Positions 23,135 through 39,144 of a DNA stretch of 64,000 nt are shown one piece after another. A model generated the notes under the pieces. That model did not search any database and was not told the DNA's origin. It saw only the letters and a list, made by a program, of their open reading frames with translations. The stretch covers positions 124,001 to 188,000 of the forward strand of contig NZ_FOOC01000001.1 of NCBI RefSeq assembly GCF_900113085.1, given 5' to 3'. Made by a program: the position numbers and the translations under genes. The first letter of the stretch is position 1. Each line of letters opens with the position of its first letter. The DNA comes from Fontimonas thermophila. Its GTDB lineage: Bacteria; Pseudomonadota; Gammaproteobacteria; Nevskiales; Nevskiaceae.

Positions 23135-23709
23135 GCCAGCGCCTCTGGGCCGTTGGCATTGACCAGGGCATGGTCGCGAAAATCCGCGGCCACCGCGTGC
23201 TGCGAAAACAAAAACGCGCGCACGGCGTAACGTCCGGCCGCGAGCGCGTCCTGCAAGCTGCCTGCGAGATCGGTGCGCAGTGCGCACACGGTGTAATGGG
23301 GGCCGTCGTCGGCGAGCGCATACGCAGCGCTCGCCCCGGCGCGGCATGCCGAGCGGATCAGCCGCGCGACACTGTCGGCCGGCAGTCCGAGCGTGTCGCA
23401 GGCGACGCAGACCAGCCACGGCGTGTCGGCACGGCGCGCCGCCGCGAGCATGCCGGCGAGTGGGCCGAACCAGCCCGGTTGACCGTCGGTGACCACCTCG
23501 ACGCCGAAGCTGCGATAGCGCGCGAGATTGCGGTTGGCGCTGATCAGCACACGCCGTACCTGCGGCGCGAGCAATGCGAGCTGGTGCTCGGCGAGCGTAC
23601 GGCCGCGATACGCCACGAGCCCTTTGTCGGCACCGCCGAACCGCAGGCCGCGCCCACCGGCGAGAACGACCCCGGTCACGTCGTCGTGGATGGCGCAGGC
23701 GGCATACAT
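23131..23709 (-). CDS. mobA: Molybdenum cofactor guanylyltransferase MobA
   Basis: MobA adds GMP to Mo-molybdopterin to make the guanine dinucleotide form used by NasA-type enzymes. The 192-residue protein has the nucleotide-binding LAGGRGLRFGGADKGL, the GPLAGMLAA motif and the VCVACDTLGLP motif, where the usual aspartate-containing C-D-x-P block is slightly altered. ATG 23709 is used because homology starts a few residues later; the frame is open well upstream, but that would run through the operator. mobA is the first gene of the operon, and its presumed -10 lies inside a ModE-type operator. Confidence 0.94.
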   Translation of the reverse strand: MYAACAIHDDVTGVVLAGGRGLRFGGADKGLVAYRGRTLAEHQLALLAPQVRRVLISANRNLARYRSFGVEVVTDGQPGWFGPLAGMLAAARRADTPWLVCVACDTLGLPADSVARLIRSACRAGASAAYALADDGPHYTVCALRTDLAGSLQDALAAGRYAVRAFLFSQHAVAADFRDHALVNANGPEALA

Positions 23710-23711
23710 GG

Positions 23712-23735
23712 CGTTATGCGCGAGTATATATAACG
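23712..23735. promoter_or_regulatory. ModE-type operator overlapping the mobA -10
   Basis: CGTTATGCG (23712-23720), six nt, then TATATAACG (23727-23735) form a dyad whose right half plus AT matches the E. coli ModE half-site TATATAACGAT exactly; the left half matches in CGTTAT. The six-nt spacer is that of known ModE sites. Read on the minus strand, TATACT (23723-23728) is a good -10 for mobA, so binding would block mobA transcription. The neighbouring gene encodes a ModE-like protein. Confidence 0.72.
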
Positions 23736-23808
23736 ATGATCGTGCCGGCAGCCGTTGCTCGCTGGCGTATTCCCGATGGGAGCGCGCTGGGTCTGCCGGC
23801 CAGGCCCG

Positions 23809-23814
23809 TACAAT
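23809..23814 (+). promoter_or_regulatory. Candidate -10 element (TACAAT) for the modE-like gene
   Basis: TACAAT lies 31 nt before the ATG of the ModE-like gene in the divergent gap. The -35 is poorly defined. It is about 75 nt from the centre of the ModE-type operator. Confidence 0.4.
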
Positions 23815-23845
23815 CGGGGCTTGCATCCATACCGCAAAAACCGCG

Positions 23846-24199
23846 ATGCCGGATCGAAAATACAGCGTCCGTTCGCAGTTCTGGCTCATGGCCGGCGACG
23901 AGGCGCTCGCCGGTCCCGGCCGTATCGAGCTGCTGCGCCTGATCCAGGCGACTGGTTCGATCCGCCAGGCCGCGCTCGCCATGGGCATGAGTTACCGCGC
24001 GGCGTGGGACGCCGTCGATGCGATGAACAAGCGCGCCGGCGCCGCCGTCGTCACGCGTCTGACCGGCGGCCGCAGCGGCGGCGGCGCACGGCTCACCGAA
24101 CACGGCCAGCGTCTGATCCGCGCCTATGCGCGGCTCGAGGATGATCATCGTCGGCACCTCGCGCGGATGAATGCGAAACTCGCCCGGCTGTTGCGCTGA
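23846..24199 (+). CDS. ModE-like winged-helix regulator lacking a molybdate-binding domain
   Basis: The 117-residue protein matches the N-terminal DNA-binding part of ModE: GRIELLRLIQATGSIRQAALAMGMSYRAAWDAVDAMN is the winged helix-turn-helix in several blocks, followed by GGRSGGGARLTEHGQRLIRAY. Full ModE (about 260 residues) has two molybdate-binding TOBE/Mop domains after this; here the protein ends with the helix KLARLLR. It is divergent from mobA, with a ModE-type operator between them, so it probably controls the cofactor operon. How it would sense molybdate is not clear. LysR-like annotations of such short proteins are common but the ModE match is better. Confidence 0.85.
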   Translation: MPDRKYSVRSQFWLMAGDEALAGPGRIELLRLIQATGSIRQAALAMGMSYRAAWDAVDAMNKRAGAAVVTRLTGGRSGGGARLTEHGQRLIRAYARLEDDHRRHLARMNAKLARLLR

Positions 24200-24223: not shown

Positions 24224-24292
24224 GAACGGTCGGTGGGCGCGCGGCTGCGGCCCGATCGATCCCGCAGCACGGTCCGCGACCCACCGCCGTTC
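24224..24292. repeat. Long inverted repeat between the convergent modE-like and nasA genes
   Basis: GAACGGTCGGTGGG (24224-24237) pairs with CCCACCGCCGTTC (24280-24292): 13 bp with a single bulged T. A second 6-bp stem (CTGCGG/CCGCAG) lies inside. It overlaps the nasA stop codon by 2 nt. No T run follows on either strand, so it may act as a transcript-end stabiliser rather than a classical terminator. Confidence 0.6.
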
Positions 24293-26978
24293 ATGCCGGC
24301 TCGCGCGTCGATGCGATCAGGGCCCTGAGCTCCGGGATACATGAACCGCAATTGGTGCCGCAGCGCAGGCGCTGTCCCAGCGCTTCGACCGTGCGGCAGC
24401 CGCCGTGAATCGCGCCGACGATCGCATGGCGGCCGACGCCAAAGCAGGCGCAGACCGTGGGGCCGGTGTCGGCGTCGCGATCCGGCGGCTCACCGACGAG
24501 CAGGCCGATCCGGTCGCGATCGTCGAGACGCTCCTTGACAAACAGTCCGGACAGCCAGGCGCGTGACGGCAGATCGGGGCGTGGCGAGACGAACAGACAG
24601 GCTGCGATGCGCCCATCGACGATCCAGGCCGCACGGAACACGCCGACGCTGCGGTCCTCGTATTCGATCCAGTCGGCATCGGCATCGCCGACGCCGAGCA
24701 TGTCGCGGGCGCATGCCGCCCAGTCGTCAACCGGCTCGCGCCCGGCCAGTTCATAGCGCACGAACCGTGCGCCGGTCACGCGTGTCCACCAGGTCAGCGT
24801 CTGCATCGGCACCGGCGTGCGGCTGAGCAAAAAGCCGTGCCAGCGCACCGCAAACGGCTCGACACGCACCGGAGTGTGCTTGAACTCCGGCTCGCCGGAG
24901 ACCGGATCGACCACCGGATTGCACAGCGCGCCGACCCGGGCATCCGAGGCGTACTGCGCATTCCAGTGGATGGGCACGAAGACGCTGCGGCGCGGCAGTT
25001 CGCCGCTGCTGCGCACGCGCGCGACCAGACGGCCCCAGCGCGTCGACACCCAGGCGAGCTCGCCCTCGCGCACGCCGCACAGCAATGCATCCTGCGGATG
25101 CAGATCGACATAGGGTTCGGCGATGTGCGTGGCCAGCCGTGGCGACAAACCCGTGCGCGTCATCGTGTGCCAATGGTCGCGCACGCGACCGGTGTTGAGG
25201 ACCAGCGGGTAATCGTCGTCGCAGGCGTGCACCGGCGCGCGCGGCGGCGTCGGCACGAAGCGCGCCTTGCGCTCGGGCGTGTAGAACCGGCCGTCCGCGA
25301 AAGGTCGCAGCGGCCGCGACCCGGCCTGCCCCGCGGCCACTGGCCAGCACACCGGCGCCAGCGCATCGTAGGCGGCGCGGTCCATGCCGACGAGCCCGGC
25401 CAGGTCGAGATAGCGCGGCACCTCGTCGTCGGTGTTGCCGAACGCGGTCAGGCGTGCGTGCTCGTCGAAGATCTGGTGCGGCCCGGTGTAGCGGAACGCC
25501 TCGGCATAGCCCCAGCGCTTGCCCACCTCGGCGAGCATCCACCAGTCTGGCCTGGCTTCGCCGGGTGCGGGCAGGAACGCGCGCTGGCGCGAGATGCGGC
25601 GCTCGGAGTTGGTGACGGTGCCATCCTTCTCGCCCCAGGCCAGCGCCGGCAGCAGCACGTGTGCGTAGGCGGTCGTGTCGGTGTGTTCGATGACGTCGGA
25701 GACGACCACGAGCTCGCACTTTTTCAGCGCGCGCTTGACCTTGTCGGCGTCGGGCAGGCTCACCACCGGGTTGGTCGCCATGATCCATACCGCCTTGACG
25801 CGGCCATCGTCGATGGCATCGAACAGCTCCACGGCCTTGAGCCCCGGCCGGGTCGGGATGCGCGGGCTGTTCCAGAAGCGCTGCACGAGCGCACGGTGGC
25901 GCGCGTCGTCCAGGCCCAGGTGCGCGGCGAGCATGGTGGCGAGCCCGCCGACCTCACGCCCGCCCATCGCATTGGGCTGGCCGGTGAGCGAGAACGGCCC
26001 CATGCCGGGCTTGCCGATGCGGCCGGTCAGCAAATGGCAGTTGATGATGCTGTTGACCTTGTCGGTGCCGGCGGACGATTGGTTCACGCCCATCGAGAAT
26101 GCCGTGACCACACGCTCGGTGCGTGCGAACAGGCGATAGAACTCGGTGAGCGCGGAGGTGTCGATCCGGCAGGCGCTGGCCACCGCGCGCACGCTGCCGG
26201 CAGTGGCGTCGGCGACGGCGAGCGCGCGCGCAACGCCGACGGTGTGGCGCTCGACGAACGCCGGATCGACGACCCCGTGCTGGTGCAGAAACGCCAGCAG
26301 TCCGTTGAACAGCCAGACATCGGTGCCGGGGCGCAGCGGCAGATGCAGATCGGCGATGTCCGTCGTCGCGGTGCGCCGCGGATCGACGACCACGATCTTC
26401 ATCTGCGGCCGCTGTGCCTTGGCCGCGACGATGCGCTGGTAGAGAACCGGATGGCACCAGGCGGTGTTGGAGCCGACCAGCACGACCAGATCCGCCTGTT
26501 CGAGATCCTCATAGGACACCGGCACGATGTCCTCACCGAAGGCGCGCTGGTGTCCGGCCACCGCGGAGGCCATGCACAGCCGCGAATTGGTGTCGATGTT
26601 CGCCGTGCCGACATAGCCCTTCACCAGCTTGTTGGCGACGTAGTAATCCTCGGTCAGCAACTGCCCGGAGACATACCACGCGACGGCGTCGGGACCGTGC
26701 GTGTCGATGATCCGGCGCAGTGCGCCGGCGACGTGATCGAGTGCGGTATCCCAGCTCGTGCGCTGCAGCGTCCCGTCGGCACCGCGCAGCTTGGGATACA
26801 GCAGCCGTCCATCCGGCACCAGCGTCTCCCCGAGCGCGGAACCCTTGACACACAGCCGTCCGGCATTGGCCGGATGCGCCGCATCGCCGGCGATGGCGAT
26901 GCCGTCCGCCGCAACGCGCGCCACCACCCCGCAGCCGGTGCCGCAATACGGGCAGGTGGTTCTCACGGGCGCGCTCAT
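24291..26978 (-). CDS. nasA: Assimilatory nitrate reductase catalytic subunit NasA
   Basis: NasA reduces nitrate to nitrite in the cytoplasm. The 895-residue protein has the N-terminal [4Fe-4S] motif C9, C12, C16, C43, a molybdopterin guanine dinucleotide-binding core with GVNQSSAGTDKVNSI and GQPNAMGGREVG, the C-terminal molydopterin-binding domain (about 660-780), and a C-terminal BFD-like [2Fe-2S] domain with CAC at 843-845 and CGSC at 877-880. No twin-arginine signal is present, which excludes the periplasmic NapA. Its ATG overlaps the stop of the upstream FAD reductase by 1 nt. It is the last gene of the narK operon; Mo-cofactor genes lie next door. Confidence 0.96.
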   Translation of the reverse strand: MSAPVRTTCPYCGTGCGVVARVAADGIAIAGDAAHPANAGRLCVKGSALGETLVPDGRLLYPKLRGADGTLQRTSWDTALDHVAGALRRIIDTHGPDAVAWYVSGQLLTEDYYVANKLVKGYVGTANIDTNSRLCMASAVAGHQRAFGEDIVPVSYEDLEQADLVVLVGSNTAWCHPVLYQRIVAAKAQRPQMKIVVVDPRRTATTDIADLHLPLRPGTDVWLFNGLLAFLHQHGVVDPAFVERHTVGVARALAVADATAGSVRAVASACRIDTSALTEFYRLFARTERVVTAFSMGVNQSSAGTDKVNSIINCHLLTGRIGKPGMGPFSLTGQPNAMGGREVGGLATMLAAHLGLDDARHRALVQRFWNSPRIPTRPGLKAVELFDAIDDGRVKAVWIMATNPVVSLPDADKVKRALKKCELVVVSDVIEHTDTTAYAHVLLPALAWGEKDGTVTNSERRISRQRAFLPAPGEARPDWWMLAEVGKRWGYAEAFRYTGPHQIFDEHARLTAFGNTDDEVPRYLDLAGLVGMDRAAYDALAPVCWPVAAGQAGSRPLRPFADGRFYTPERKARFVPTPPRAPVHACDDDYPLVLNTGRVRDHWHTMTRTGLSPRLATHIAEPYVDLHPQDALLCGVREGELAWVSTRWGRLVARVRSSGELPRRSVFVPIHWNAQYASDARVGALCNPVVDPVSGEPEFKHTPVRVEPFAVRWHGFLLSRTPVPMQTLTWWTRVTGARFVRYELAGREPVDDWAACARDMLGVGDADADWIEYEDRSVGVFRAAWIVDGRIAACLFVSPRPDLPSRAWLSGLFVKERLDDRDRIGLLVGEPPDRDADTGPTVCACFGVGRHAIVGAIHGGCRTVEALGQRLRCGTNCGSCIPELRALIASTREPA

Positions 26979-28291
26979 CACGGTGCATCCGCACAGAACG
27001 CGCGCCCGAACACGAGGCGGCTGCGCAGGCGCGACACATCGGCGCGCCGGCGCATCAGCTCGAAGTACCACGCACCGTCGCCGACATCGCCGTAGAGCAC
27101 GGCGCCGACCAGACACCCGTCCTTGAGCACCAGGCGCTTGTACGTTCCACGGCGCGCGTCGCGGAACACCAGATCCTCGGTGCCGTCGCCGCCGCCGAAC
27201 TCGCCCGCGGAAAACACATCGATTCCGCTCACCTTGAGCTGGGTCGCCGTGGCCGTCTGCACGAAGCGACGATGGCCGTATCCGGCCAGATGTGCGGCGC
27301 AGACGCGCGCCTGCTCCCAGATCGGTGCGACCAATCCGAACGTCGCCTTGCGGTGCTGCACGCACTCGCCGACGGCGTAGATGCGCGGATCGGACAGCGT
27401 CTGCAACGTGTCGTCGACGACGATCGCGCGCTCGCAGTACAGGCCGGCCTGCCGGGCCAGCTCGACGTTCGGACGGATGCCGACCGCCATGACGACGAGA
27501 TCGGCCTCGATCTCGCGGCCGTCCTTGAAGCGCAGCCCGGCGACGCGATCGCGTCCCAGGATCGCGGCAGTGTCGGCCTTGAGCAGGACGCGGATACCGC
27601 GCCGCTCCAGCGCTTCGCGCAGCAGCGCGGCCGCCGGCGCATCGAGCTGGCGCTCCATCAGCCGATCCATGACGTGCACGACGGTCACGTCCATGCCCCG
27701 ACGCTTGAGCCCATGGGCCGCCTCCAGCCCGAGCAGACCCCCGCCGATGACCACGGCCTTGCGCCGCGTGCGCGCCGCCGTGAGCATCGCCTCGACATCC
27801 TCGATGGCACGGAACGCGACGACGCCGGGCAGATCGGCGCCCGGCACCGGAATCACGAACGGCCTGGATCCGGTCGCGAGCAGCAGCCGGTCATAAGCCG
27901 CCTTGCGCCCGCTGCGCGAGATCACGATCCGGCGCGTACGGTCGATGGCGACGATGGGATCGCCGGCGTGCAGCGTGATGCCATTGGCCGCATACCACGC
28001 GTGCGGATGGAGCATGATGTCGTCGAGGCGTTTTTCACCGGCGAGCAGCGGCGACAGCAGGATGCGGTTGTAATTTCCGTGCGGCTCGGCGCCGAACACG
28101 GTGATGTCGTACACGCTGGCGTCGAGCTTGAGCAGCTCCTCGACCGTGCGCATGCCGGCCATGCCATTGCCGACGACGACGAGCCTCTGCCTGGGGCGAG
28201 CGCTGGCGGCCTCGCCCATGCGGCGATCGACGCCGGTGAGGTGCTCGCGCATGGGCCCCGGCAGCGCCCGCGCGGGAATCGCCGTGGTCAT
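26978..28291 (-). CDS. NAD(P)/FAD-dependent reductase, probable electron donor to NasA (NasB-like)
   Basis: The 437-residue flavoprotein has an N-terminal FAD-binding fold (RLVVVGNGMAGMRTVEELL, about residues 33-51), a second NAD-binding GxGxxG (VVIGGGLLGLEAAHGL) and the FAD motif DPRIYAVGECVQH. It closely resembles the N-terminal half of NirB, but has no siroheme or BFD domain. Position between nirD and nasA, with 4-nt and 1-nt overlaps, makes it the likely NAD(P)H donor for NasA. The start is ATG 28291 (MTTAIPARALPG), overlapping the nirD stop; the frame is open upstream inside nirD. Donor preference for NADH or NADPH is not readable here. Confidence 0.88.
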   Translation of the reverse strand: MTTAIPARALPGPMREHLTGVDRRMGEAASARPRQRLVVVGNGMAGMRTVEELLKLDASVYDITVFGAEPHGNYNRILLSPLLAGEKRLDDIMLHPHAWYAANGITLHAGDPIVAIDRTRRIVISRSGRKAAYDRLLLATGSRPFVIPVPGADLPGVVAFRAIEDVEAMLTAARTRRKAVVIGGGLLGLEAAHGLKRRGMDVTVVHVMDRLMERQLDAPAAALLREALERRGIRVLLKADTAAILGRDRVAGLRFKDGREIEADLVVMAVGIRPNVELARQAGLYCERAIVVDDTLQTLSDPRIYAVGECVQHRKATFGLVAPIWEQARVCAAHLAGYGHRRFVQTATATQLKVSGIDVFSAGEFGGGDGTEDLVFRDARRGTYKRLVLKDGCLVGAVLYGDVGDGAWYFELMRRRADVSRLRSRLVFGRAFCADAP

Positions 28292-28629
28292 ACGGCGACC
28301 TGCACGCGGCCATCGACCAAGCGCACGCGGTAGGCGCGCACCGCGAGCGCCGGATCGTCCAGGCACGCGCCGGTGACGAGATCGTAGTGATGCTTGTACA
28401 CCGGCGAGGCCACGACCAGACGCTCGCCGAGATTGCCGACCAGTCCGCGCGACAGCACGTTGGCGTCCGCCGCCGGATCGTAATTGTCGAGGGCGAACAA
28501 CCGGTCATCGCGCAAGCGGAACACCGCGACCTGCCGGCCCGCGATGCGCGCGCAGACACCGGTATCCGGCCAGATGTCGTCGAGCCCGCAGACGTCGTGC
28601 CAACATGCTGGCGCGTTTGATCCATCCAT
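28288..28629 (-). CDS. nirD: Nitrite reductase (NADH) small subunit NirD
   Basis: The 113-residue protein has a Rieske-like fold of the NirD type, lacking cluster ligands: the position of the usual C-x-H is ALDNYDPAADANVLSRGLVG, and the second is SPVYKHHYDLVTG. NirD works with NirB in cytoplasmic nitrite reduction to ammonium. It follows nirB by 18 nt and overlaps the next gene by 4 nt. Confidence 0.94.
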   Translation of the reverse strand: MDGSNAPACWHDVCGLDDIWPDTGVCARIAGRQVAVFRLRDDRLFALDNYDPAADANVLSRGLVGNLGERLVVASPVYKHHYDLVTGACLDDPALAVRAYRVRLVDGRVQVAV

Positions 28630-28647: not shown

Positions 28648-31218
28648 TCATGCCGGCTCGTTGACCACGGCGATGCCCTTGAAGCGCGCCTGCTTCTCGG
28701 CGGGCGTCGCCGGACGGATCTGCCCGCGTTCCTCGACGAAAACGACGTGCTCATCGACGCCGTCGCCGTTGACGAAGCTGCGGAAGCGCTTGCGGGTCTG
28801 CGGGTCTTCGAGCGCCTTCTTCCATTCGCAGACATAGCTGCCGATCACCTGCGCCATCTCCGCTTCCAGCTCCGCACCGATGCCGAGCTTGTCGTGGACG
28901 ATGACGTCCTTGAGGTAATCGAGCCCGCCTTCGAGGTTGTCGCGCCAGGTGCTGGTGCGCTGCAAACGATCCGCGGTACGGATGTAGAACATCAGGAAAC
29001 GGTCGATGTAGCGGATCAGGGTCTGCTCGTCGAGATCGCCGGCGAGCAGCTCGGCGTGCCGCGGCTTCATGCCGCCGTTGCCGCAGACATAGAGATTCCA
29101 GCCCTTCTCGGTGGCGATCACGCCGACGTCCTTGGACTGCGCCTCGGCGCATTCGCGGGCGCAGCCGGACACCGCGAGCTTGAGCTTGTGCGGCGCGCGC
29201 AGGCCCTTGTAACGATGCTCGATCTTCAACGCCATGCCGACCGAATCCTGCACGCCGTAGCGGCACCAGGTGCTGCCGACGCAGGACTTCACCGTGCGCA
29301 CGGCCTTGCCGTAGGCATGGCCGGACTCGAAACCGGCATCAATCAGCTCCTGCCAGATCAACGGCAACTGATCCACACGCGCGCCGAACAGGTCGATGCG
29401 CTGGCCGCCGGTGATCTTGGTGTACAAGCGGTATTTCTTCGCGACCTCGCCGATCTTGATCAGTTTCTCCGGGGTGATCTCGCCGCCGGCGATGCGCGGC
29501 ACGATGGAGTAGGTCCCGTCCTTCTGCAGGTTGGCGAGGAAATAATCGTTGGTGTCCTGCAGCGCGGCCTTGTCCCGGGCGAGCACGAACTCGTTCCAGC
29601 ACGAGGCGAAGATGCTTGCGGCGACCGGCTTGCACACATCGCAGCCCAGGCCCTTGCCATGCCGGGCGAGCAGTGTGGCGAAGTCGCGGATGCCGCCGAC
29701 GCGCACCAGGTGATACAGCTCCTGGCGCGAATACGCAAAGTGTTCGCACAGGTGGTGGTTGACCGACAGGCCTTGTTTCTTCATCTCGGCCTTCATGATC
29801 TGCGTGATCAGCGGCACGCAACCGCCGCAGCCGGTGCCGGCGCGCGTCGCCGATTTGATCGCACCGATACTGGTCGCGCCCGCGCGCACCGCGGCACAGA
29901 CCGCGCCCTTGGCGACGTTGTTGCACGAGCAGACCGGCGCGGTGTCGGGCCAGGCATCGACGCCCAGTGCGGATTTGTCCGCGCCGTCGCTGGCCGGCAG
30001 GATCAGCAGCTCCGGCCGGTCCGGCAGTGCGCTGCCGCTGCGCATCATCTGCAGCAGCGCGGCGTACTCGCCGGCATCGCCGACGAGCACGGCGCCGAGC
30101 AGGCGCTTGCCGTCGGCGGAGATCACCAGCTTCTTGTAGACCTGCTTGCGCTCATCGCTGTAGAGGCAGACCTGCGCGCCGGGCGTGGTGCCCAGCGCAT
30201 CGCCGATGCTGGCGACCTCCACGCCCATGAGCTTGAGCTTGGTGCTCATGTCGGCACCGTGGAACGCCGGTAGCGGCTGTGTGGCGCGGCGCTCGGCCGC
30301 CAGGCCCGCCGCCAGATGCGCGGCGCAAACCCGCGCCATCTCGTAGCCCGGCGCCACCAGGCCGTAAATCTTTCCGTTCCACAGCGCGCATTCGCCGATC
30401 GCATAGATGTCGTCGTCGGGCGTGCGGCAGTGGTTGTCGATGACGATGCCGCCGCGCGGGCCCACCGCAAGCCCGCAGGCGCGCGCCAGTTCGTCGCGCG
30501 GGCGGATGCCGGCCGAGAACACGATCAGATCGGTTTCGAGCTCGGTGCCATCGGCGAACCTCAGCTTGTGGCGCGCGGTGTCGCCATCGACGATCTCGAC
30601 CGTATTCTTCTGTGTGTGCACGGTCACGCCCAGCGCCTCGATCTTGCTGCGCAGCAGGCGCCCGCCGCCGTCGTCGATCTGCACGGCCATCAGCCGCGGC
30701 GCGAACTCGACGACGTGGGTGACGAGCCCCATGTCCTGGACCGCCTTGGCTGCTTCGAGCCCGAGCAGACCTCCGCCGACGACGACGCCGACCCGGGCGC
30801 GCCTGCCCGCCTCGCGCAAGGCCTCGAGATCTTCGATCGTGCGGTAAACGAAGCAATCCGGCCGGTCGCTGCCCGGCACCGGCGGCACGAAGGGATACGA
30901 GCCGGTGGCGAGCACGAGTTTGTCGTAATGCAGGGTGTCGCCGTTCGCGGTCGTGACCTGCCTGCGCGCGCGGTCGATCGCACTCGCCCGGGTGTTCAGG
31001 CGCAGCGTGATGCCGCTGCGCTCGAAAAAGCCGGGCGCAACCAGCGACAGATCCGCGGCGCTCTTGCCGGAGAAAAACGAGGAGAGTTGCACGCGGTCGT
31101 AGGCCGGCCGCGGCTCTTCGCAGAGCACGGTGATATGAAGATCGGGCAGCGCTGCCGCGCTCAGCTCCTCGAGGAGGCGATGGCCGACCATGCCGTTGCC
31201 GATGACGACGAGTTTCAT
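28648..31218 (-). CDS. nirB: Nitrite reductase (NADH) large subunit NirB
   Basis: NirB is the cytoplasmic siroheme enzyme that reduces nitrite to ammonium with NADH. The 856-residue protein has FAD/NAD-binding domains (about 1-310; VVIGNGMVGHRLLEEL and VVVGGGLLGLEAAKAV), a BFD-like [2Fe-2S] domain with C430, C432, C464 and C467, a sulfite/nitrite reductase ferredoxin-like half domain (about 555-620), and the siroheme/[4Fe-4S] cysteines C646, C652, C686 and C690 (CVGSTWC and CAREC). All ligands are present. It follows narK by 26 nt and precedes nirD by 18 nt. Confidence 0.97.
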   Translation of the reverse strand: MKLVVIGNGMVGHRLLEELSAAALPDLHITVLCEEPRPAYDRVQLSSFFSGKSAADLSLVAPGFFERSGITLRLNTRASAIDRARRQVTTANGDTLHYDKLVLATGSYPFVPPVPGSDRPDCFVYRTIEDLEALREAGRRARVGVVVGGGLLGLEAAKAVQDMGLVTHVVEFAPRLMAVQIDDGGGRLLRSKIEALGVTVHTQKNTVEIVDGDTARHKLRFADGTELETDLIVFSAGIRPRDELARACGLAVGPRGGIVIDNHCRTPDDDIYAIGECALWNGKIYGLVAPGYEMARVCAAHLAAGLAAERRATQPLPAFHGADMSTKLKLMGVEVASIGDALGTTPGAQVCLYSDERKQVYKKLVISADGKRLLGAVLVGDAGEYAALLQMMRSGSALPDRPELLILPASDGADKSALGVDAWPDTAPVCSCNNVAKGAVCAAVRAGATSIGAIKSATRAGTGCGGCVPLITQIMKAEMKKQGLSVNHHLCEHFAYSRQELYHLVRVGGIRDFATLLARHGKGLGCDVCKPVAASIFASCWNEFVLARDKAALQDTNDYFLANLQKDGTYSIVPRIAGGEITPEKLIKIGEVAKKYRLYTKITGGQRIDLFGARVDQLPLIWQELIDAGFESGHAYGKAVRTVKSCVGSTWCRYGVQDSVGMALKIEHRYKGLRAPHKLKLAVSGCARECAEAQSKDVGVIATEKGWNLYVCGNGGMKPRHAELLAGDLDEQTLIRYIDRFLMFYIRTADRLQRTSTWRDNLEGGLDYLKDVIVHDKLGIGAELEAEMAQVIGSYVCEWKKALEDPQTRKRFRSFVNGDGVDEHVVFVEERGQIRPATPAEKQARFKGIAVVNEPA

Positions 31219-31244: not shown

Positions 31245-32576
31245 TTACGCGGCGGCCGCGCGCTCGGTGAGCGCCTGCTCGTAGAGCCGCTGTTCACGGG
31301 CCTTGTGTTCAGCAGAAAAGCGCACCGCGATCGCGCACAGCGCGGCCATGCTCACGCAAACGCCGAGCAGCAGCAGGCATTCCTGCGTGCTACCCACACC
31401 TTTCATCAGAAAACCGGCGGCGACCGCGCCGACATTGCCGCCGGCGCCGACAATGCCGGCGACGCCGCCGAGCGCCTGACGATCGACGAAGGGCACCAGC
31501 GCATAGGTCGCGCCGCAGGCCATGTGCGTGAACAGGCCAAAGGTGATCATTGCGACGACGGCGAGCGCGACTGTTTCGGCCTGCGCGAACCACAGCAGCC
31601 CAAGCCCTTCCCCGAGGATCAGCGCGAACAGCAAGAGGCCGCGGCCATCGAGCCCGAAGCGACGCGCGATGCGGTCCGAGACATAACCGCCGAGGGCGCG
31701 CGCGAACAGGGCCAGCAGACCGAAGCTGGCGGCGGCCAGCCCCGCGGTTTTCAGCGACAGGCCAAAGCGTTCGACGTAATGGCTCGCGGCGATGTTGTGG
31801 ATGAAGATCTCGACACCGAAGCAGGCGCCGTAGGTCACGAACAGCAGCCAGACGCGATAGTTGGCGCAGGCGCGCTTGAAGCTCTGCCAGCCGGCTTTCT
31901 TGTCGTTTGCTGGGAGCTGCCCGGCGGCGCGCAGCGTGGCGTAATCACCGGCCGGACAGTCCTGCGTGTAACGCCAGTACAGCCACGCGCAGACCAGCAT
32001 CAGCACCCCCGGGGTGAGCAGCGCGAAGCGCCAGCCCAGCGTCTGCTCGACACCGAGCCAGACCAGGGCCGCCAGCAGCAGCGGCATCAACGCCTGCGCG
32101 GCGCCGCCACCGGCATTGCCCCAGCCCGCCGCCGTCGCGTTGGCCGTGCCGACGACGTTGGGCGCGAACATCACCGAGGTGTGGTACTGGGTGATGACGA
32201 AGCTCGCGCCGATCGCACCGATGGCCAGGCGAAAGAACAAAAAGCTCTCGTAGCTCTGCGCCGCGGCGACGCCGAACACCGGCAGCGCGCCGACGAGCAA
32301 AAGCCCGGTATAGGCCTTGCGTGGGCCAAAGCGGTCGCACAGCGGGCCGATGATCAGGCGCGCGAGAATCGTCACCGCGACCGCGGCGATGTTGATGTTG
32401 GCGATCTGATCCTTGGTCAGGGCGAACTCGCCCTTGATCACCGGCATCAGCGGGGCGCAGGCGAACCACGCGAAAAAGCAGACGAAGAACGCAAGCCAGC
32501 TCAAGTGGAACGCACGCATCTGCGGCGTGGCCAGGCTGAACAGGCGGATCGTCGTGGCCTTGTGCAAGGGCGGCAT
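31245..32576 (-). CDS. narK: Nitrate/nitrite transporter NarK (MFS)
   Basis: The 443-residue, 12-helix major facilitator has the NNP-family signatures: FFVCFFAWFACAPLMPVIKGEF in helix 1, GPLCDRFGPRKAY between helices 2 and 3, and the nitrate signature around GWGNAGGGAAQ and GVAGIVGAGGNVGAVAAGF. It imports nitrate, possibly in exchange for nitrite. A GAGGAG ribosome-binding site stands 7 nt before ATG 32576. It is the first gene of the assimilation operon and lies directly after an attenuator, a double-hairpin element and a sigma-54 promoter. Confidence 0.96.
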   Translation of the reverse strand: MPPLHKATTIRLFSLATPQMRAFHLSWLAFFVCFFAWFACAPLMPVIKGEFALTKDQIANINIAAVAVTILARLIIGPLCDRFGPRKAYTGLLLVGALPVFGVAAAQSYESFLFFRLAIGAIGASFVITQYHTSVMFAPNVVGTANATAAGWGNAGGGAAQALMPLLLAALVWLGVEQTLGWRFALLTPGVLMLVCAWLYWRYTQDCPAGDYATLRAAGQLPANDKKAGWQSFKRACANYRVWLLFVTYGACFGVEIFIHNIAASHYVERFGLSLKTAGLAAASFGLLALFARALGGYVSDRIARRFGLDGRGLLLFALILGEGLGLLWFAQAETVALAVVAMITFGLFTHMACGATYALVPFVDRQALGGVAGIVGAGGNVGAVAAGFLMKGVGSTQECLLLLGVCVSMAALCAIAVRFSAEHKAREQRLYEQALTERAAAA

Positions 32577-32602: not shown

Positions 32603-32649
32603 AAAAAAAAAGCGCCCACGTCGCGGTCCGCCGACCGCGTCATGGACGC
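32603..32649 (-). terminator. Attenuator (intrinsic terminator) in the narK leader
   Basis: On the minus strand a 17-bp stem (arms 32633-32649 and 32612-32628, one mismatch, two G-U pairs) with a 4-nt loop is followed by nine T residues (32603-32611), 26 nt before the narK start. It lies between promoter and gene, so it is an attenuator. Its 5' arm overlaps the second hairpin of the upstream regulatory element, so the two structures exclude each other. Confidence 0.9.
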
Positions 32650-32700
32650 CGTTGTCCTGGAGTACCCTCATCCGCGGTGCGCAGAACACCGTCGTCCTGC
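32644..32700 (-). promoter_or_regulatory. ANTAR-target double hairpin (antiterminator) in the narK leader
   Basis: Hairpin 1 (32700-32681) has a 7-bp stem GCAGGAC/GTTCTGC and six-nt loop GACGGT. Hairpin 2 (32657-32644) has stem GGAC/GTCC and six-nt loop AACGGC. Known ANTAR proteins bind two stem-loops with hexaloops having A at position 1 and G at position 4: loop 2 fits fully, loop 1 has G at position 1. Hairpin 2 shares six nt with the terminator's 5' arm, the expected antitermination design. nasT, encoding an ANTAR protein, is next upstream. Confidence 0.8.
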
Positions 32701-32722
32701 ACACCGCGGTCACCGCCGTCGA

Positions 32723-32738
32723 AGCAAGCGGCGTGCCA
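32723..32738 (-). promoter_or_regulatory. Sigma-54 promoter of narK-nirB-nirD-reductase-nasA
   Basis: The minus-strand sequence TGGCACG-CCGC-TTGCT has the GG at -24 and GC at -12 exactly 10 nt apart, a full match to the RpoN consensus. Transcription would start near 32712, 12 nt before the first leader hairpin. This implies nitrogen control through an NtrC-type activator. Confidence 0.85.
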
Positions 32739-32769
32739 TGTCGCTGGGTCCATCCAGCCGGGTCTGCAC

Positions 32770-32784
32770 GCACCGTCGTGGCAC
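32770..32784. promoter_or_regulatory. Possible NtrC-type enhancer site
   Basis: GCACC, five nt, GGCAC matches the NtrC dyad GCACC-N5-GGTGC at eight of ten positions, about 45 nt upstream of the sigma-54 promoter. A single imperfect site this close is only suggestive. Confidence 0.3.
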
Positions 32785-32958
32785 GCGCGCACCAGCAGCG
32801 GGCGCGTCTTCAGCTCAGCGCGGTGCGCGCCGAGCTCGCCGGCGGGACATCGCCGACCGCGCCATCCATCGCGGCGTGCACACCGCCGCGGCGATGTCCA
32901 GCGGCATGCCGCCGGGCCGGCGCGTCTTGCCTTGCGGTTCTTGGTGCAGGCTCCGGCC

Positions 32959-33528
32959 CTACAGCAACTCCGCTGCGGCGAGCAGCGCGCGCGCGGCATC
33001 TCCGATCGAGAGCTTGCGGTCCATGGCCATCTTGCGCAGCTGCGCGTACGCCTCGGCTTCCGACAGCCGGCGGCGCTCCATCAGCACTCCCTTGGCGCGT
33101 TCGACATCGCGCCGGTCGGCGAGCCGCAGCTTGGTTTGCGCAAGCTCACGCTGCAGCGCCTGATGCTGCTCGAACCGGGCGATGGCGACATCGATCACCG
33201 CCTTCAGGCGCGCGGGCGCAAGCCCGTCGACGACGTATGCGGACACACCGGCCTGGACTGCGCGGCGCGCCGTCTCGGCGTCACTGTACGCGGCGAACAA
33301 CACGATCGGGCACGGCCGCTCACGCGAGATCTGGGTCAGCGACTCAAAGAGATCGCGGCGCGGGCTATCGACGTCGATGAGAATCACGTCGGGCTGGTGC
33401 CGCGTCACCGCCGCCAGCAGGTCGTCCGCCGTCGCGAGCACGGCGACGACCGCGTGGTCGTCATCGATCAGCGCCTGGCGCAGCAGGGTGCTGCGGGAAG
33501 AGTCGTCATCGACGAGCAGGACGCGCAT
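32959..33528 (-). CDS. nasT: ANTAR-domain response regulator NasT (transcription antiterminator)
   Basis: The 189-residue protein has a receiver-like domain (1 to about 120: RVLLVDDDSS, VILIDVDSP) and a C-terminal ANTAR RNA-binding helix bundle (RDVERAKGVLMERRRLSEAEAYAQLRKMAMD in blocks). The receiver keeps acidic residues but has YVVDGL where a typical receiver has its conserved Lys-Pro, as in other NasT proteins that are not phosphorylated. NasT is normally held inactive by the nitrate sensor NasS; no nasS is in this window. It sits between two transcripts whose leaders share a hairpin element. The start at 33528 gives the conserved N terminus. Confidence 0.93.
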   Translation of the reverse strand: MRVLLVDDDSSRSTLLRQALIDDDHAVVAVLATADDLLAAVTRHQPDVILIDVDSPRRDLFESLTQISRERPCPIVLFAAYSDAETARRAVQAGVSAYVVDGLAPARLKAVIDVAIARFEQHQALQRELAQTKLRLADRRDVERAKGVLMERRRLSEAEAYAQLRKMAMDRKLSIGDAARALLAAAELL

Positions 33529-33597: not shown

Positions 33598-33613
33598 TGG
33601 CACACCCTTTGCT
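33598..33613 (+). promoter_or_regulatory. Sigma-54 promoter of the porin gene
   Basis: TGGCAC-ACCCT-TTGCT has GG and GC ten nt apart, a full RpoN match in the divergent orientation. Transcription would start near 33624, leaving a leader of about 190 nt that contains the shared hairpin element. Confidence 0.8.
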
Positions 33614-33665
33614 TCGGCAGACACGCGGCGATCTGCCCCACCACCGCGCTGTCGCGTACCGGGGC

Positions 33666-33683
33666 CCAGGACAACGGCGTCCA
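33666..33683 (+). promoter_or_regulatory. Second copy of the ANTAR-target hairpin, in the porin leader
   Basis: The 18-nt sequence here is identical to 32643-32660 on the other strand. It folds as GGAC (33669-33672), loop AACGGC, GTCC (33679-33682). The partner hairpin is weak: CGC-GCTGTC-GCG near 33647-33658 has the right loop size but a short stem. No terminator with a T run follows, so the mechanism may differ from narK. Confidence 0.65.
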
Positions 33684-33814
33684 ACCGCGGGCCACCGGAA
33701 AAGACATCGTGCCGCTTCGCGCACGCACGCCTGCCCGATGGCACGCCCACGCGGAGTCTGCAATGCCTGTTCGTTTTGGCGCCGGCATACCGGCGTACGC
33801 GGAGCCTGGACATC

Positions 33815-35008
33815 ATGAATCGATATGACAGAACACACCGCCTGGCGGCGGCATCGCTGCTGGCCGTCTGCGCAGCGGCGAATGGCGCCGACCGCATCGC
33901 GGCCCTCAGCGAGGGCCGGACGAGCCTCGATTTGCGCCTGCGCTACGAGACCGTGACACAGGACGGCGCGCTCGCCGACGCCGCGGCTCTGACCCTGCGC
34001 ACGCGGCTCGGCTATACGACGGCGCCGTGGTCGGCGCTCGAAGGATTCGTCGAGATGGAATCCGTGGCCGCGCCGATCGACGACTACGCACCGGTGACAC
34101 CGGGCCATTCGACGATCGCCGATCCGCCGGGCACCGAGGTCAACCAGTTCGGCCTGCGGTACACCGGCGTGCCCGGACTGAACCTGAGCCTGGGTCGCAG
34201 CCGGCTCGTGCTCGACAACGCGCGCTGGGTCGGGAATGTCGCCTGGCGTCAGAACGAACAGACCTTCGACGGCGCGTTCCTGCGCTGGGGCGACAGCGCC
34301 ACCGGACCGAGCGGGCAGTATGCCTATCTGACGAACGTGCACACCGTCACCGGCGCCGACCTCGACCTCGAAGGCCATTTGTTCAACCTGGGCCTGCGCG
34401 CACGGCCATGGCTCGCGTTGACTGCCTACCTCTACCGGCTCGACTTCGCCGCACCGGGCACGGCGGATACCGTCAGCTTCGGCCTGCGCGGGCACGGCCG
34501 CAGGCCACTGGGTGCGCGCGCCAGCTTAAGCTACGCCGTGGAATACGCGCGGCAACAGGCACAGACGGCGGCCGGCGACTTCCGCGCGGGATACGCGCTC
34601 GCCGAAATCGGCGTTGGCATTGCGCCGGTGGCGCTCACGCTCGGATACGAGGTGCTGGGCAGCGACCACGGCCGCTACGGCCTGCAAACCCCGCTGGCGA
34701 CCAAGCACGCCTTCCAGGGCTGGGCCGATGCCTTTCTGACGACACCGGATACCGGCATCGCGGATCTTTACGCCGCGGCGCAGGGCGCCATCGGTCCGCT
34801 CAGGCTCACCGCCGTCTGGCATCGCTTCGCCACTGCCGCGTCTTGTGCGCAGCCCGGCCGCCATGGCGATGAATTCGACATCTCCGCCGGCATGCCGCTG
34901 GCCGGCGCGCTCACTGGCCTGATCAAGGCCGCGCGTTACCGCGCCGCGCCCGGATCGGGCACCGCGGACACCGACAAACTGTGGGCACAGCTCGAATACG
35001 CCTTCTGA
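33815..35008 (+). CDS. Outer-membrane porin, alginate-export (AlgE-like) family; candidate nitrate porin
   Basis: The 397-residue protein has a signal peptide (about 1-24, AAANGA), then beta-barrel sequence with alternating hydrophobic strands (LDLRLRYETV, TLRTRLGYTT, LEGFVEMESV) and a terminal aromatic residue (AQLEYAF). It resembles alginate-export-family porins; the name does not imply alginate transport. Divergent from nasT, with a sigma-54 promoter and the shared leader hairpin, it probably lets nitrate or another nitrogen source across the outer membrane. ATG 33815 follows GGAG (33801-33804). A 6-bp perfect hairpin (33780-33795) stands just before this ribosome-binding site. Confidence 0.85.
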   Translation: MNRYDRTHRLAAASLLAVCAAANGADRIAALSEGRTSLDLRLRYETVTQDGALADAAALTLRTRLGYTTAPWSALEGFVEMESVAAPIDDYAPVTPGHSTIADPPGTEVNQFGLRYTGVPGLNLSLGRSRLVLDNARWVGNVAWRQNEQTFDGAFLRWGDSATGPSGQYAYLTNVHTVTGADLDLEGHLFNLGLRARPWLALTAYLYRLDFAAPGTADTVSFGLRGHGRRPLGARASLSYAVEYARQQAQTAAGDFRAGYALAEIGVGIAPVALTLGYEVLGSDHGRYGLQTPLATKHAFQGWADAFLTTPDTGIADLYAAAQGAIGPLRLTAVWHRFATAASCAQPGRHGDEFDISAGMPLAGALTGLIKAARYRAAPGSGTADTDKLWAQLEYAF

Positions 35009-35200
35009 TCCGTCGGCGTTACGGCCCGCGCCGGGCGGCCCATCCCGGCGAAACGGCGGCGACCGGCGCGGGCATTGGCGTGCGCGCCAGCCCGACCGGA
35101 TAGGCGCGCCGACGCAGACTGGGTAGGATGCGCGCCCGGAACGGATCGGGCCGACCCAGGTCCATCCCGACCGCACCGGTTTTGCCGGAGAACCCGTCAC

Positions 35201-37792
35201 TTGGACAAGCCGCATCCCACCTCCGAGACCACGGGCGCAGCAGCGTCCGTGCTGGCGCTGCTCGACCGCAGCCGGCACGTGCTGGTGGCCGTGTTCGCGC
35301 TGCTGGTCAGCGCGCTGCTGCTGCATACGCTGCGCGGCCTGCTCGCCGAGCTACGCCTCGCCGACGTCGTGGCCGCCGTGCGCGCGACTCCTCCGGATGC
35401 CCTGGGCTGGGCGGTGCTGGCGACGGCGCTGAGTTTTGCCGCGCTCAGCGGCTACGACCATTCCGCGCTGCGCTATGCCGGTGCTCGGGTGGCCTACCGG
35501 ATCGTCGCGCCGACTTCCTTCATCGCCTATGCGCTCGGCAACGCCATCGGCGTCGGCGTGCTCACCGGCGGCGCGGTACGCATGCGCCTGTATGCCGCCG
35601 CCGGCGTGGAGGCCGGGCTGATCGCCCGCGCGATCGCGTTCAATGCCGTCGCCTTTGGCCTCGGGATCGCGGCGGTCGGCGCCGTCGCGCTGCTGTGGGG
35701 CGCCGATGCGGTCGCGCCGGTGCTACACGTGCCGGCATTGCTGCTGCGCCTGCTGGCGGCGGCGGTGCTCGCCACCGTCGCCGGTCTGCTGTGGCTGTGC
35801 GCGCGCAGCGGCGAATACCGGTTGTTCGGCCGCGTGCGCATCACCCTGCCGGGGTTCGGCCTGGCCGCGCAGCAACTGCTGTTCTCCGCGCTCGACATCG
35901 TCGGCGCGGCGCTGGTGCTATGGGTTCTGCTGCCACCCGGTGCGGTGGCCTTCAGCGTCTTTCTCGGCTTTTTCTCGATCGCCGTGCTGCTCGGCGTGAT
36001 CAGTCACGTGCCGGGCGGCATGGGCGTGTTCGAGGCGGTGATGCTGATCGCGCTCTCCGGGCATGTGCCCGCCGAGCAGCTGGCGGCCGCGCTCGTGCTG
36101 TATCGCCTGATCTACTTCGCGCTGCCGCTGCTGCTCGCGCTGGCGCTGCTGGTCGGTTTCGAACTGCGCCAGGGCACCGGCGCGCCGGTCGTGCGCGCCG
36201 CGGCCTCGCTCGCCCCGCTGGGCCTGGCCGCGTTCACGCTAGTCGTCGGCGTGATGCTGCTGCTGTCGGGCGCGACGCCGGCCACGGACAGCGCCACCGC
36301 GTGGCTTGCGCAGTACGTGCCGCTGAGCCTCGTCGAGGCGTCGCACTTCCTCGGCAGCATCGCCGGGGTGCTCCTGCTGTTCGTCGCGCGCGGCATGCTG
36401 CAGCGCCTGGATGCGGCGTGGTGGGCCGGGCTGCTGCTCGCGCTGTTTGCCCTGGTGCTCGCGATTCCCAAGGGCATCGCCCTGTCCGAGGCGGTGATGC
36501 TGACCCTACTCGCGGCCGCGCTCGCCCTCTCGCGCCGTCAGTTCACGCGCAAGGCTTCGCTGTTCGCACAGCCATTCAGCCCCGGCTGGCTGCTCGCCAT
36601 CGCCGCGATCCTCGCCGCGAGTACCGCGCTGCTGTTCTTCGCCTATCGCGACGTCGAATACACGCACCAGCTGTGGTGGCAGTTCGAATTCGACGGCCAT
36701 GCGCCGCGCTCGCTGCGCGCGCAGGTCGCGGTCGCCCTCGTCGCACTGCTACTGGCGACATGGAGGCTGTTCCGGCCGCATGCAGCCGCGCCGCCGCTGC
36801 CCGATGCCGCGGCGCTGGCACGTGCCGAGGCCATCGTCCGCCAGCAACCGAGCGCCGAGGCAGGGCTGGCGCTGGTCGGCGACAAGGCCTTGCTGTTTTC
36901 GAAATCGCAGCGCGCCTTCGTGATGTTCGGCCGGCGCGCGCGCTCGTGGATCGCGTTGTTCGACCCGGTCGGACCGCCCGAAGAGTGGAGCGAGCTGATC
37001 TGGTCTTTCCTCGAGCAGGCGCGCGCCGCCGGCTGCCGTGCAGCCTTCTACCAGGTGCGCCCGCAACACCTCAGTCTGTATCTCGACGCCGGGCTACAGT
37101 TGTACAAGCTCGGCGAGTACGCCTATGTGCCGCTTCCGGATTTTTCGCTGCAGGGGAAATCGCGTGCCAAGCTGCGCCACGCGCTCAGCCGCGCCGAACG
37201 CGAGGGACTGAGCTGCGAGATCATCCCGCCCGGCGCGGCAGCCGCGGTGCTGCCTGCATTGCGCGCGGTGTCCGACGCCTGGCTTGCCGAGCAGCAGACC
37301 GCGGAGAAGGGGTTTTCCCTGGGCAGCTTCGACCCGGCCTACCTGCGGCGGGTGCCGCTGGCACTGGTGCGCCAGCATGGCGAGATCATCGCTTTTGCCT
37401 CGCTGCTGACGACGAAGATCGGTCTTGAAGCCAGCGTCGATCTGATGCGCCATCGTCCGGGTGTGCCGCCGGGGACGATGGATTTTCTGTTCATCAGCCT
37501 GATCCGGCACTTCCAGGCGCAGGGTGTGCAGCGCTTCGGGCTGGGCATGGCGCCGCTCGCCGGCATGGCCGAACATCCGCTGGCCTCGCATTGGCATCGT
37601 CTCGGCCGTCTGCTGTACACGCGCGGCGAGCGCTTCTACAACTTCCGGGGACTGCGTGCGTTCAAGGAAAAATTCGATCCACAATGGGAACCGCGCTACC
37701 TCGCCGCGCCGGGTGGACTGACCCCGCTGTTCGTGCTTGCCGACGTCGCCGCGCTGATCGGCGGCGGTCTGCGTGGCGTGATCGCCAAATGA
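35201..37792 (+). CDS. mprF: Bifunctional phosphatidylglycerol lysyltransferase/flippase MprF
   Basis: MprF adds an amino acid (usually lysine or alanine) from tRNA to phosphatidylglycerol and flips the product, lowering membrane negative charge. The 863-residue protein has an N-terminal multi-helix flippase domain (about 1-510; includes the conserved VGVLTGGAVRMRLYAAAG and HVPGGMGVFEAVML) and a C-terminal DUF2156 aminoacyl-transferase domain (about 530-863; SQRAFVMFGRRARSWIALFDPVG, FYQVRPQHLSLYLDAGL). TTG 35201 is chosen, with GGAG 10 nt upstream. The gap of 192 nt after the porin holds TAGGAT (35125-35130), a possible -10. acvB overlaps its stop by 4 nt. Confidence 0.93.
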   Translation: MDKPHPTSETTGAAASVLALLDRSRHVLVAVFALLVSALLLHTLRGLLAELRLADVVAAVRATPPDALGWAVLATALSFAALSGYDHSALRYAGARVAYRIVAPTSFIAYALGNAIGVGVLTGGAVRMRLYAAAGVEAGLIARAIAFNAVAFGLGIAAVGAVALLWGADAVAPVLHVPALLLRLLAAAVLATVAGLLWLCARSGEYRLFGRVRITLPGFGLAAQQLLFSALDIVGAALVLWVLLPPGAVAFSVFLGFFSIAVLLGVISHVPGGMGVFEAVMLIALSGHVPAEQLAAALVLYRLIYFALPLLLALALLVGFELRQGTGAPVVRAAASLAPLGLAAFTLVVGVMLLLSGATPATDSATAWLAQYVPLSLVEASHFLGSIAGVLLLFVARGMLQRLDAAWWAGLLLALFALVLAIPKGIALSEAVMLTLLAAALALSRRQFTRKASLFAQPFSPGWLLAIAAILAASTALLFFAYRDVEYTHQLWWQFEFDGHAPRSLRAQVAVALVALLLATWRLFRPHAAAPPLPDAAALARAEAIVRQQPSAEAGLALVGDKALLFSKSQRAFVMFGRRARSWIALFDPVGPPEEWSELIWSFLEQARAAGCRAAFYQVRPQHLSLYLDAGLQLYKLGEYAYVPLPDFSLQGKSRAKLRHALSRAEREGLSCEIIPPGAAAAVLPALRAVSDAWLAEQQTAEKGFSLGSFDPAYLRRVPLALVRQHGEIIAFASLLTTKIGLEASVDLMRHRPGVPPGTMDFLFISLIRHFQAQGVQRFGLGMAPLAGMAEHPLASHWHRLGRLLYTRGERFYNFRGLRAFKEKFDPQWEPRYLAAPGGLTPLFVLADVAALIGGGLRGVIAK

Positions 37793-39144
37793 ATCCGCTG
37801 CTGCGCATATTCGCCTACTTCCTCGCCGCGACCGTGGGCATCGCGCTGGGGATGACACCGGCAAGCGCGCAGGAGCGCATCACGCACGGGCTGTTCCAGC
37901 CCGTGCGGCTGTATCGGCCGCCCGCCGACGTACAGCAGTTCGTGCTGTTGCTGTCCGATGTGAATGGCTGGGACGCAGATGCCGAGCACAGCGCGCAGGC
38001 GCTGGCAGCGCGCGGGGCGTTGGTCGGTGGCATCGACTACGCACAGTTGCGCCGCGCGCTCGACGCCAGCGGCGGCGACTGCGTGTTCCCCGATGGTGAT
38101 CTGGAAAACCTGTCCCACTACCTGCAGGGCTACGCCCGGGTTCCGGGATACTACAAACCGCTCGTGGTCGGCATCGGCGCTGGCGCGGCGCTGGCCTACG
38201 CGATGGCGGCCGCAGCCCCTGCCGAGCTCTTTGGCGGCGCGATCGGCCTGCGCTGGTGTCCGCAACCGATGCCGGGCAAGCCGCTGTGTGCCGACAAGCG
38301 CTCCGGCTATGTGCGCAACACTGCGCAAGGCCAGGTGCTCCAGTTCGTGCCGCAGCTCGCGATACCCTGGCGGCTCGTCGTGGATGACGCTGACGCATGC
38401 CTCGGGGCACGCGGCGCCGATTTCGCTGCGCAGATGCGCAGCGCCGGATACGTGTCCGCTTCGCTGCTCGAGGCCTACACCTGGCTCGCCCAGCAGAAGA
38501 CCGACACCGCACCGCCGCCCGCCGGGGCCCTGGCCGATCTGCCGCTCGTCGAGGTGCCCTCGTCCGTGCCCGGCGACACGTTCGCGGTGCTGCTCTCCGG
38601 CGACGGCGGCTGGGCCGGGCTCGACAAGCGGGTCGCCGCGCACCTCGCCGCGCGCGGCCTGCCGGTGGTCGGGATGGATTCGCTGCGCTATTTCTGGAGC
38701 GCACGCACGCCGGAGGGCCTCGCCGCCGATCTCGACCGCATCCTGCGGCACTACGCCGCGCGCTGGCAGCGGCCGCGCGCCGTCCTCATCGGCTATTCGC
38801 AGGGGGCCAATGTGCTGCCCTTCGCCGTCAACCGCCTGCCGGCGGCCACGCGCCGAACGGTCGTGCACATCGTGCTGATGGGCCTGGAGGCGCGCGCGTC
38901 CTTCGAGTTCCACCTGGGCAACTGGCTCGGGTCCGATTCCGACGGCCTGCCAGTGCAGCCGGAGCTCGCGCGCCTGCGCGCCGAGGACGTGCTGTGCCTG
39001 TACGGCGAGGAGGAGACCGACTCGCTGTGCCGCAGCGCCGGCGCGGCGCACGTACACGCCGAGCAGTTGCCCGGCGGCCATCATTTCGACGGCGCCTACG
39101 ACACCCTGGCCGCCGCAATCCTGCGGCGCATCCCGGCGCGCTGA
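37789..39144 (+). CDS. acvB: AcvB/VirJ-family periplasmic hydrolase (probable aminoacyl-phosphatidylglycerol hydrolase)
   Basis: The 451-residue protein has a signal peptide (1-27, PASAQ) and two alpha/beta-hydrolase-like halves. The C-terminal VirJ domain carries GDGGWAGLDK (271-280), the nucleophile motif GYSQG with Ser337, and a late GGHHFDG holding a candidate catalytic His. The N-terminal half has GIGAG where the nucleophile elbow would be, so it lacks the serine. In Agrobacterium, AcvB hydrolyses lysyl-phosphatidylglycerol made by its MprF partner. The ATGA overlap with mprF supports the same synthesis/turnover pair here. Confidence 0.9.
   Translation: MNPLLRIFAYFLAATVGIALGMTPASAQERITHGLFQPVRLYRPPADVQQFVLLLSDVNGWDADAEHSAQALAARGALVGGIDYAQLRRALDASGGDCVFPDGDLENLSHYLQGYARVPGYYKPLVVGIGAGAALAYAMAAAAPAELFGGAIGLRWCPQPMPGKPLCADKRSGYVRNTAQGQVLQFVPQLAIPWRLVVDDADACLGARGADFAAQMRSAGYVSASLLEAYTWLAQQKTDTAPPPAGALADLPLVEVPSSVPGDTFAVLLSGDGGWAGLDKRVAAHLAARGLPVVGMDSLRYFWSARTPEGLAADLDRILRHYAARWQRPRAVLIGYSQGANVLPFAVNRLPAATRRTVVHIVLMGLEARASFEFHLGNWLGSDSDGLPVQPELARLRAEDVLCLYGEEETDSLCRSAGAAHVHAEQLPGGHHFDGAYDTLAAAILRRIPAR

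Follow-up and report, generated by a model that had tools for sequence, protein, structure and literature searches.

In the ANTAR attenuation scheme, described for EutV (PMC3369931) and NasR (PMC7496416), a protein holds the second of two leader hairpins (P2) against a terminator. In Paracoccus denitrificans the ANTAR protein NasT is kept inactive by NasS as long as NasS has bound neither nitrate nor nitrite, and Nas activity is constitutive when nasS is mutated (PMC3795266). General nitrogen control of nasABGHC by Ntr proteins has also been reported in this organism (PMC3795266, PMC5424462). The effect of nitrate there is not all-or-none, because even with NasS present, cells on glutamate produce the nas transcript when nitrate is lacking (PMC5424462). 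In Pseudomonas putida, a nasT deletion mutant did not grow on nitrate (PMC7261876).

We analyzed a 64-kb stretch of Fontimonas thermophila DNA (the whole of which is called the window below) that carries narK, nirB, nirD and nasA downstream of nasT; no other ANTAR gene was found in the genome. The features are listed in Table 1. The NarK protein scored 301.5 bits against TIGR00886, slightly below the cut-off of 311.7, and NasA, assigned by its domains and its place in the operon, reached no equivalog cut-off in NCBIfam. The flavoprotein encoded between nirD and nasA is likely the electron-transfer subunit of the nitrate reductase. Molybdenum-cofactor genes lie beyond nasA; adjoining these and nasA is a short ORF (23528-24199, plus strand) with a LysR-type HTH_1 (PF00126) match near its end, possibly a ModE-like N-terminal domain. 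Further along the window, a lysylphosphatidylglycerol synthase-like gene (35075-37792, plus strand) is followed by a VirJ-family (PF06057) gene (37591-39144, plus strand).

Table 1. Features of the nitrate assimilation locus, in window coordinates.
Feature	Positions	Strand	Remarks
nasA, assimilatory nitrate reductase	24291..27365	-	ORF as listed; start probably nearer 26970
Pyridine-nucleotide-disulphide oxidoreductase (flavoprotein)	26978..28366	-	ORF as listed; true start likely near 28280
nirD, nitrite reductase small subunit	28288..28629	-	
nirB, nitrite reductase large subunit	28648..31218	-	
narK-type nitrate/nitrite MFS transporter	31245..32576	-	First gene past the attenuator; its ATG lies 26 nt beyond the T tract
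Intrinsic terminator	32603..32650	-	Stem 32650-32611, -31.8 kcal/mol; nine-T tract 32611-32603
P2 hairpin	32644..32657	-	GGAC-AACGGC-GUCC, 4 bp, closing C:G, loop with A1 and G4, -4.0 kcal/mol
P1 hairpin	32672..32709	-	16 bp, hexaloop GACGGU (32693-32688), closing C:G, -31.7 kcal/mol
Sigma-54 -24/-12 promoter	32723..32738	-	TGGCACGCCGCTTGCT; predicted +1 near 32712
nasT-to-promoter gap	32739..32958	-	220 nt, no N; position of nasS in the closest relatives
nasT, receiver and ANTAR RNA-binding protein	32959..33528	-	189 aa, ATG 33528
Second, divergent leader-like site	33598..33717	+	Sigma-54 box with one mismatch; P2 33669-33682; degenerate
Outer-membrane protein gene	33815..35008	+	Alginate_exp-like, below cut-off

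All leader elements lay on the minus strand within 32738-32603, in the order that an earlier note on this DNA had described: a promoter, two hairpins with six-nucleotide loops and an overlapping terminator with nine T residues, all within 136 nt. The overlap of P2 with the 5' arm of the terminator was also as claimed, except that it measured 7 nt (32650-32644) instead of 6. Because these 7 nt are common to both structures, P2 and the terminator are mutually exclusive. The fold of 32603-32700 had a z-score of -2.88 against shuffles, and forcing P2 in the leader changed the folding energy from -67.3 to -57.1. Since the terminator is more stable than P2 alone and forcing P2 is costly, the transcript is predicted to terminate by default, and P2 would have to be held by a protein. 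The leader has the marks of an ANTAR target, namely tandem hairpins with six-nucleotide loops, C:G closure, G at position 4 of both loops (G4) and the overlap of P2 with the terminator. With nasT encoded just upstream, the reading of a sigma-54 start followed by an ANTAR attenuator is well supported by sequence, and it is an already known kind of control.

The sigma-54 consensus has a GG-N11-GC core and reads TGGCACG-N4-TTGCW. The narK box (TGGCACG-CCGC-TTGCT) agreed with it at every position, in keeping with the full-consensus promoter first proposed, and it was the sole perfect match in the 64 kb; none of 20 first-order random sequences generated from the window contained such a box. Orthologues of rpoN and ntrC are encoded in the genome. 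A scan upstream of the promoter with an NtrC consensus gave no site above chance, the best match (9 of 14) being reached in 120 of 200 shuffles. In 8 of 29 other upstream regions scanned likewise, the top score was attained by at most 5 of 200 shuffles.

The leader was also recognized by a covariance model (R2) for which 15 leaders had been chosen, with both the window leader and the narK leader of Sinimarinibacterium flocculans left out. The narK leader site scored 55.1 bits (E 9.1e-12 for the window, 3.9e-10 for the whole genome) and was the best of three genome-wide matches at E<=10, the others being the divergent 33598 site (E 0.012) and a chance-level match (E 9.8). The initial selection of sites required A or G as the first loop nucleotide and G as the fourth, and one of the two alignments (A8, as opposed to A2) was made without the two narK leaders named above. 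In 17 aligned leaders the P1 and P2 stems covaried, with 96.7% of cells paired and two-sided changes in 27 cells; shuffles gave 4.7 ± 1.8 such cells, none of the 500 reaching 27, and slid controls were far exceeded; counts from A2 and A8 are biased toward the motif because their leaders were chosen as well-formed.

Leaders of equal layout were present around the nasT genes of relatives. Family-wide, 139 leader matches were found in 48 of 58 genomes; for parsing, 130 of these (9 left out) and 3 further matches were taken, giving 133 parsed and 126 distinct leaders. Leader and ANTAR gene were both present in 47 of the 58 genomes and both missing from 9, while one genome had the ANTAR gene only (G020) and one the leader only (G012). 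The gene and the leader thus co-occur in the family, and the protein is predicted to bind the leader. The set of leaders suggests a regulon wider than narK, extending to an outer-membrane protein and, in S. flocculans, a globin. The gene order in the latter species is nasT, nasS, a globin gene with its own leader, then a further leader and narK; the globin (133 aa, PF00042 at 53.6 bits; L054:3460-4009, plus strand) is preceded by a sigma-54/ANTAR leader and lies between nasS and narK.

The Rfam check that the earlier note had put forward yielded no useful match: at gathering score the whole window gave a tRNA only, and at 20 relatives' loci no non-tRNA family reached E 0.1. RF03032 (narK RNA) was rejected as the identity of the leader, with 16.7 bits against a cut-off of 43.2 and no match at E<=0.1 in the relatives' loci. 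Nevertheless, its consensus resembles the window leader in opening with a sigma-54-like box and in containing an ANTAR-like hexaloop stretch (GAC-AAAGAC-GUC), for which reason the family may itself comprise a promoter and an ANTAR element.

The divergent site upstream of the outer-membrane protein gene carried a P2 identical to that of the narK leader, with 18 nt common to both leaders; neither a P1 candidate nor a terminator was seen in 33598-33717. Homologues of the outer-membrane protein in relatives passed the Alginate_exp cut-off and were located in or beside nas clusters. The gene adjoining nasT had a complete leader in G042 and, in G044, a leader with P2, a terminator and a P1 stem carrying one mismatch. 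In both genomes, a second nasT copy was seen just downstream of the outer-membrane protein gene (L213:341-2484 and L214:6344-8536), with no nasS alongside; the contig ends there in G042.

The two loops of the narK leader differed at position 1, which was A in P2 and G in P1. In the 17-leader alignment, the other 16 leaders had A at this position of P1. A simple scan of the 126 distinct leaders for P1 candidates found 65 with a C:G-closed A1/G4 loop, 12 with only a G1/G4 loop (the window leader included) and 49 with neither. The P1 stem was also long, at 16 bp compared with 4-10 bp in the 65 A1/G4 leaders. SELEX indicated a preference for A at loop position 1 of ANTAR targets (PMC7496416), and in an EutV target a change of A1 to U in the first loop lowered induction (PMC3369931). 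Because the preferred A1 is absent and the EutV substitution had this effect, binding of NasT to the window P1 could be weak.

G1 and the strong stem might even abolish NasT binding, leaving the operon mostly terminated or expressed by basal readthrough from a decaying leader. The degenerate state of the divergent leader agrees with such decay, as does the reduced genome (2.73 Mb versus 4.1-4.7 Mb in 9 of 10 other genus members compared). However, P2, the C:G pairs that close the loops, the G4 of each loop and the terminator are all intact, and the ANTAR part of NasT is 76% identical to that of its sister. G1 as a mark of decay unique to this leader was weakened by the 11 other G1/G4 leaders, whose P1 stems measured 9-10 bp in 5, 6 bp in 1 and 4 bp in 5. 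We therefore regard decay of the leader as improbable; judged by sequence and predicted fold, the narK leader behaves like, and shares descent with, ANTAR targets while lying outside the strict consensus.

NasS was searched for in the whole genome in three ways. Pfam NMT1_2 gave no candidate (the same search was positive in 12 of 14 control genomes), the S. flocculans NasS protein as a query gave a best E of 0.27, and an 8-row NasS alignment gave no match at E<=1e-10. No nasS remnant was found in the gap between nasT and the leader. Of the 48 genomes of the family that carry an ANTAR gene, only that of the window lacked an NMT1_2 match at E<=1e-3; G028 had a single match, which fell under the curated cut-off. 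Across the order, NasT was matched in 45 of the 56 genomes that are at least 95% complete; a NasS/NrtA-type match accompanied it in 42 of them, the three without being G000, G028 and G058. As the assembly is in 28 contigs, some sequence may be lost, and the circuit could be fully standard with nasS simply missing from the assembly. We consider this highly improbable: the genome is 99.59% complete, the window sits inside a 374-kb contig, the position that nasS would occupy is sequenced, and the searches found no NasS elsewhere.

Of the two components of NasS-NasT control, NasT was found beside the operon, and the NasS sensor was not found. The prediction that nitrogen limitation starts transcription and nitrate lets it pass the attenuator is partly supported. 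The promoter, rpoN and ntrC speak for a sigma-54 start, whereas passage in response to nitrate requires a nitrate sensor and is unsupported in the form proposed; because NasS was not found in the genome, the switch probably no longer answers nitrate in the usual way. The absence of NasS does not by itself demonstrate loss of the nitrate response.

The closest NasT found was that of S. flocculans (73% identical), and the nearest NasT relatives with a name were from Sinimarinibacterium and Hydrocarboniphaga. In the tree, the window NasT stood beside S. flocculans NasT (support 0.80) in a clade of 7 (0.95), in which nasS lay directly downstream of nasT in all six other members. Because the window NasT nests among these nasS-bearing relatives, the absence looks derived, and loss of nasS in the F. 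thermophila lineage is the simplest history. The 30 ANTAR loci with the highest scores in the family supplied 26 NasT-subfamily genes (>200 bits), of which 25 had nasS directly downstream, the exception being G052. A faster NasT branch is expected with the partner NasS gone. Unique changes on the own and the sister branch were 28:8, 26:8 and 22:14 for NasT with three outgroups, against 58:42, 61:39 and 64:43 for nirB (Fisher p 0.04, 0.14 and 1.0), and two more outgroups gave 24:9 and 14:14 for NasT.

NasT may still respond to nitrate or nitrite by way of another partner or sensor, one not homologous to NasS/NrtA; the prediction of the earlier note would then be right after all. Retention of nasT and of a complete terminator would fit such a sensor, and NasT without an adjacent nasS has parallels: at >200 bits the order had 41 NasT matches, with nasS within 75 bp in 30, and the remaining 11, several with a leader just downstream, included the window copy and six from genomes that also encode a NasT accompanied by nasS (one of the six, in G042, sits at a contig end). 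The G052 operon (L198, G052:C22) likewise runs nasT-leader-OMP-nrtABC-nirBD-nasB-nasA, with no NasS-type gene beside nasT; the sole NMT1_2 protein found in G052 was transporter-like. As relatives too have such copies, an unrecognised partner of NasT is possible. Against this, no recognised nitrate sensor was present among the subset of ORFs scanned around the cluster. A genome search found no NIT-domain sensor, which is weak evidence because no control genome gave a match. On balance, control of NasT by another sensor seems unlikely.

The reading that we favor, with a probability of roughly 60%, is that the sigma-54 promoter and the NasT attenuator drive narK-nirBD-nasA, that NasT is nitrate-blind and the operon gated mainly by nitrogen status, and that the circuit has been partly dismantled. 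Sigma-54 polymerase, activated by NtrC under nitrogen limitation, would begin the transcript near 32712, and this RNA should adopt the terminator fold unless a protein intervenes. By binding both P1 and P2, NasT would keep P2 formed, and the 7 nt common to P2 and the terminator would prevent the latter from forming. With NasS absent, free NasT would antiterminate whenever it is produced, and the operon would thus track nitrogen status and the NasT level, not nitrate by the known route. The lineage would have lost nasS and the terminator of the outer-membrane protein leader and kept nasT and the narK leader. In a further version, which we hold as tentative and doubtful, NasT was rewired after NasS loss to another input, either its nitrogen-controlled concentration or some unknown partner, giving an attenuator that works with neither NasS nor a fused NIT domain, and a terminator-free promoter for the outer-membrane protein gene.

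Taken alone, the leader adds one more example of a known control; natural loss of the sensor with nasT and the attenuator retained is the interesting part. Among the open-licence papers listed, none reported a natural NasT without NasS. The arrangement would be a natural counterpart of the laboratory nasS mutant, and it poses directly the question of which input NasT obeys. Readthrough of the leader in the absence of nitrate would mean that attenuators can persist as dosage gates after their signal has gone, and a leader that is still nitrate-responsive would mean that an unknown sensor exists.

Azotobacter vinelandii has NasS, which was not found in the window genome. Its nasAB genes (Wang et al. 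2012, via PMC12316311) resemble the locus studied here in pairing NasT antitermination with a nitrate assimilation operon. P. denitrificans nasABGHC (PMC3795266, PMC5424462) shares with it a NasT-type ANTAR gene just upstream, leader hairpins and a proposed termination before the nitrate genes, whereas NasS is present there and needed for the nitrate response and was not found here. The Klebsiella nasF leader (PMC7496416) similarly has a two-hairpin hexaloop RNA upstream of an intrinsic terminator, although NasR carries its own nitrate-sensing NIT domain and the window NasT a receiver domain instead. In the Enterococcus EutV leaders (PMC3369931), by contrast, the signal is ethanolamine via EutW and the loops carry A1, yet the P1/P2 architecture, the hexaloops and the P2-terminator overlap are those of the narK leader.
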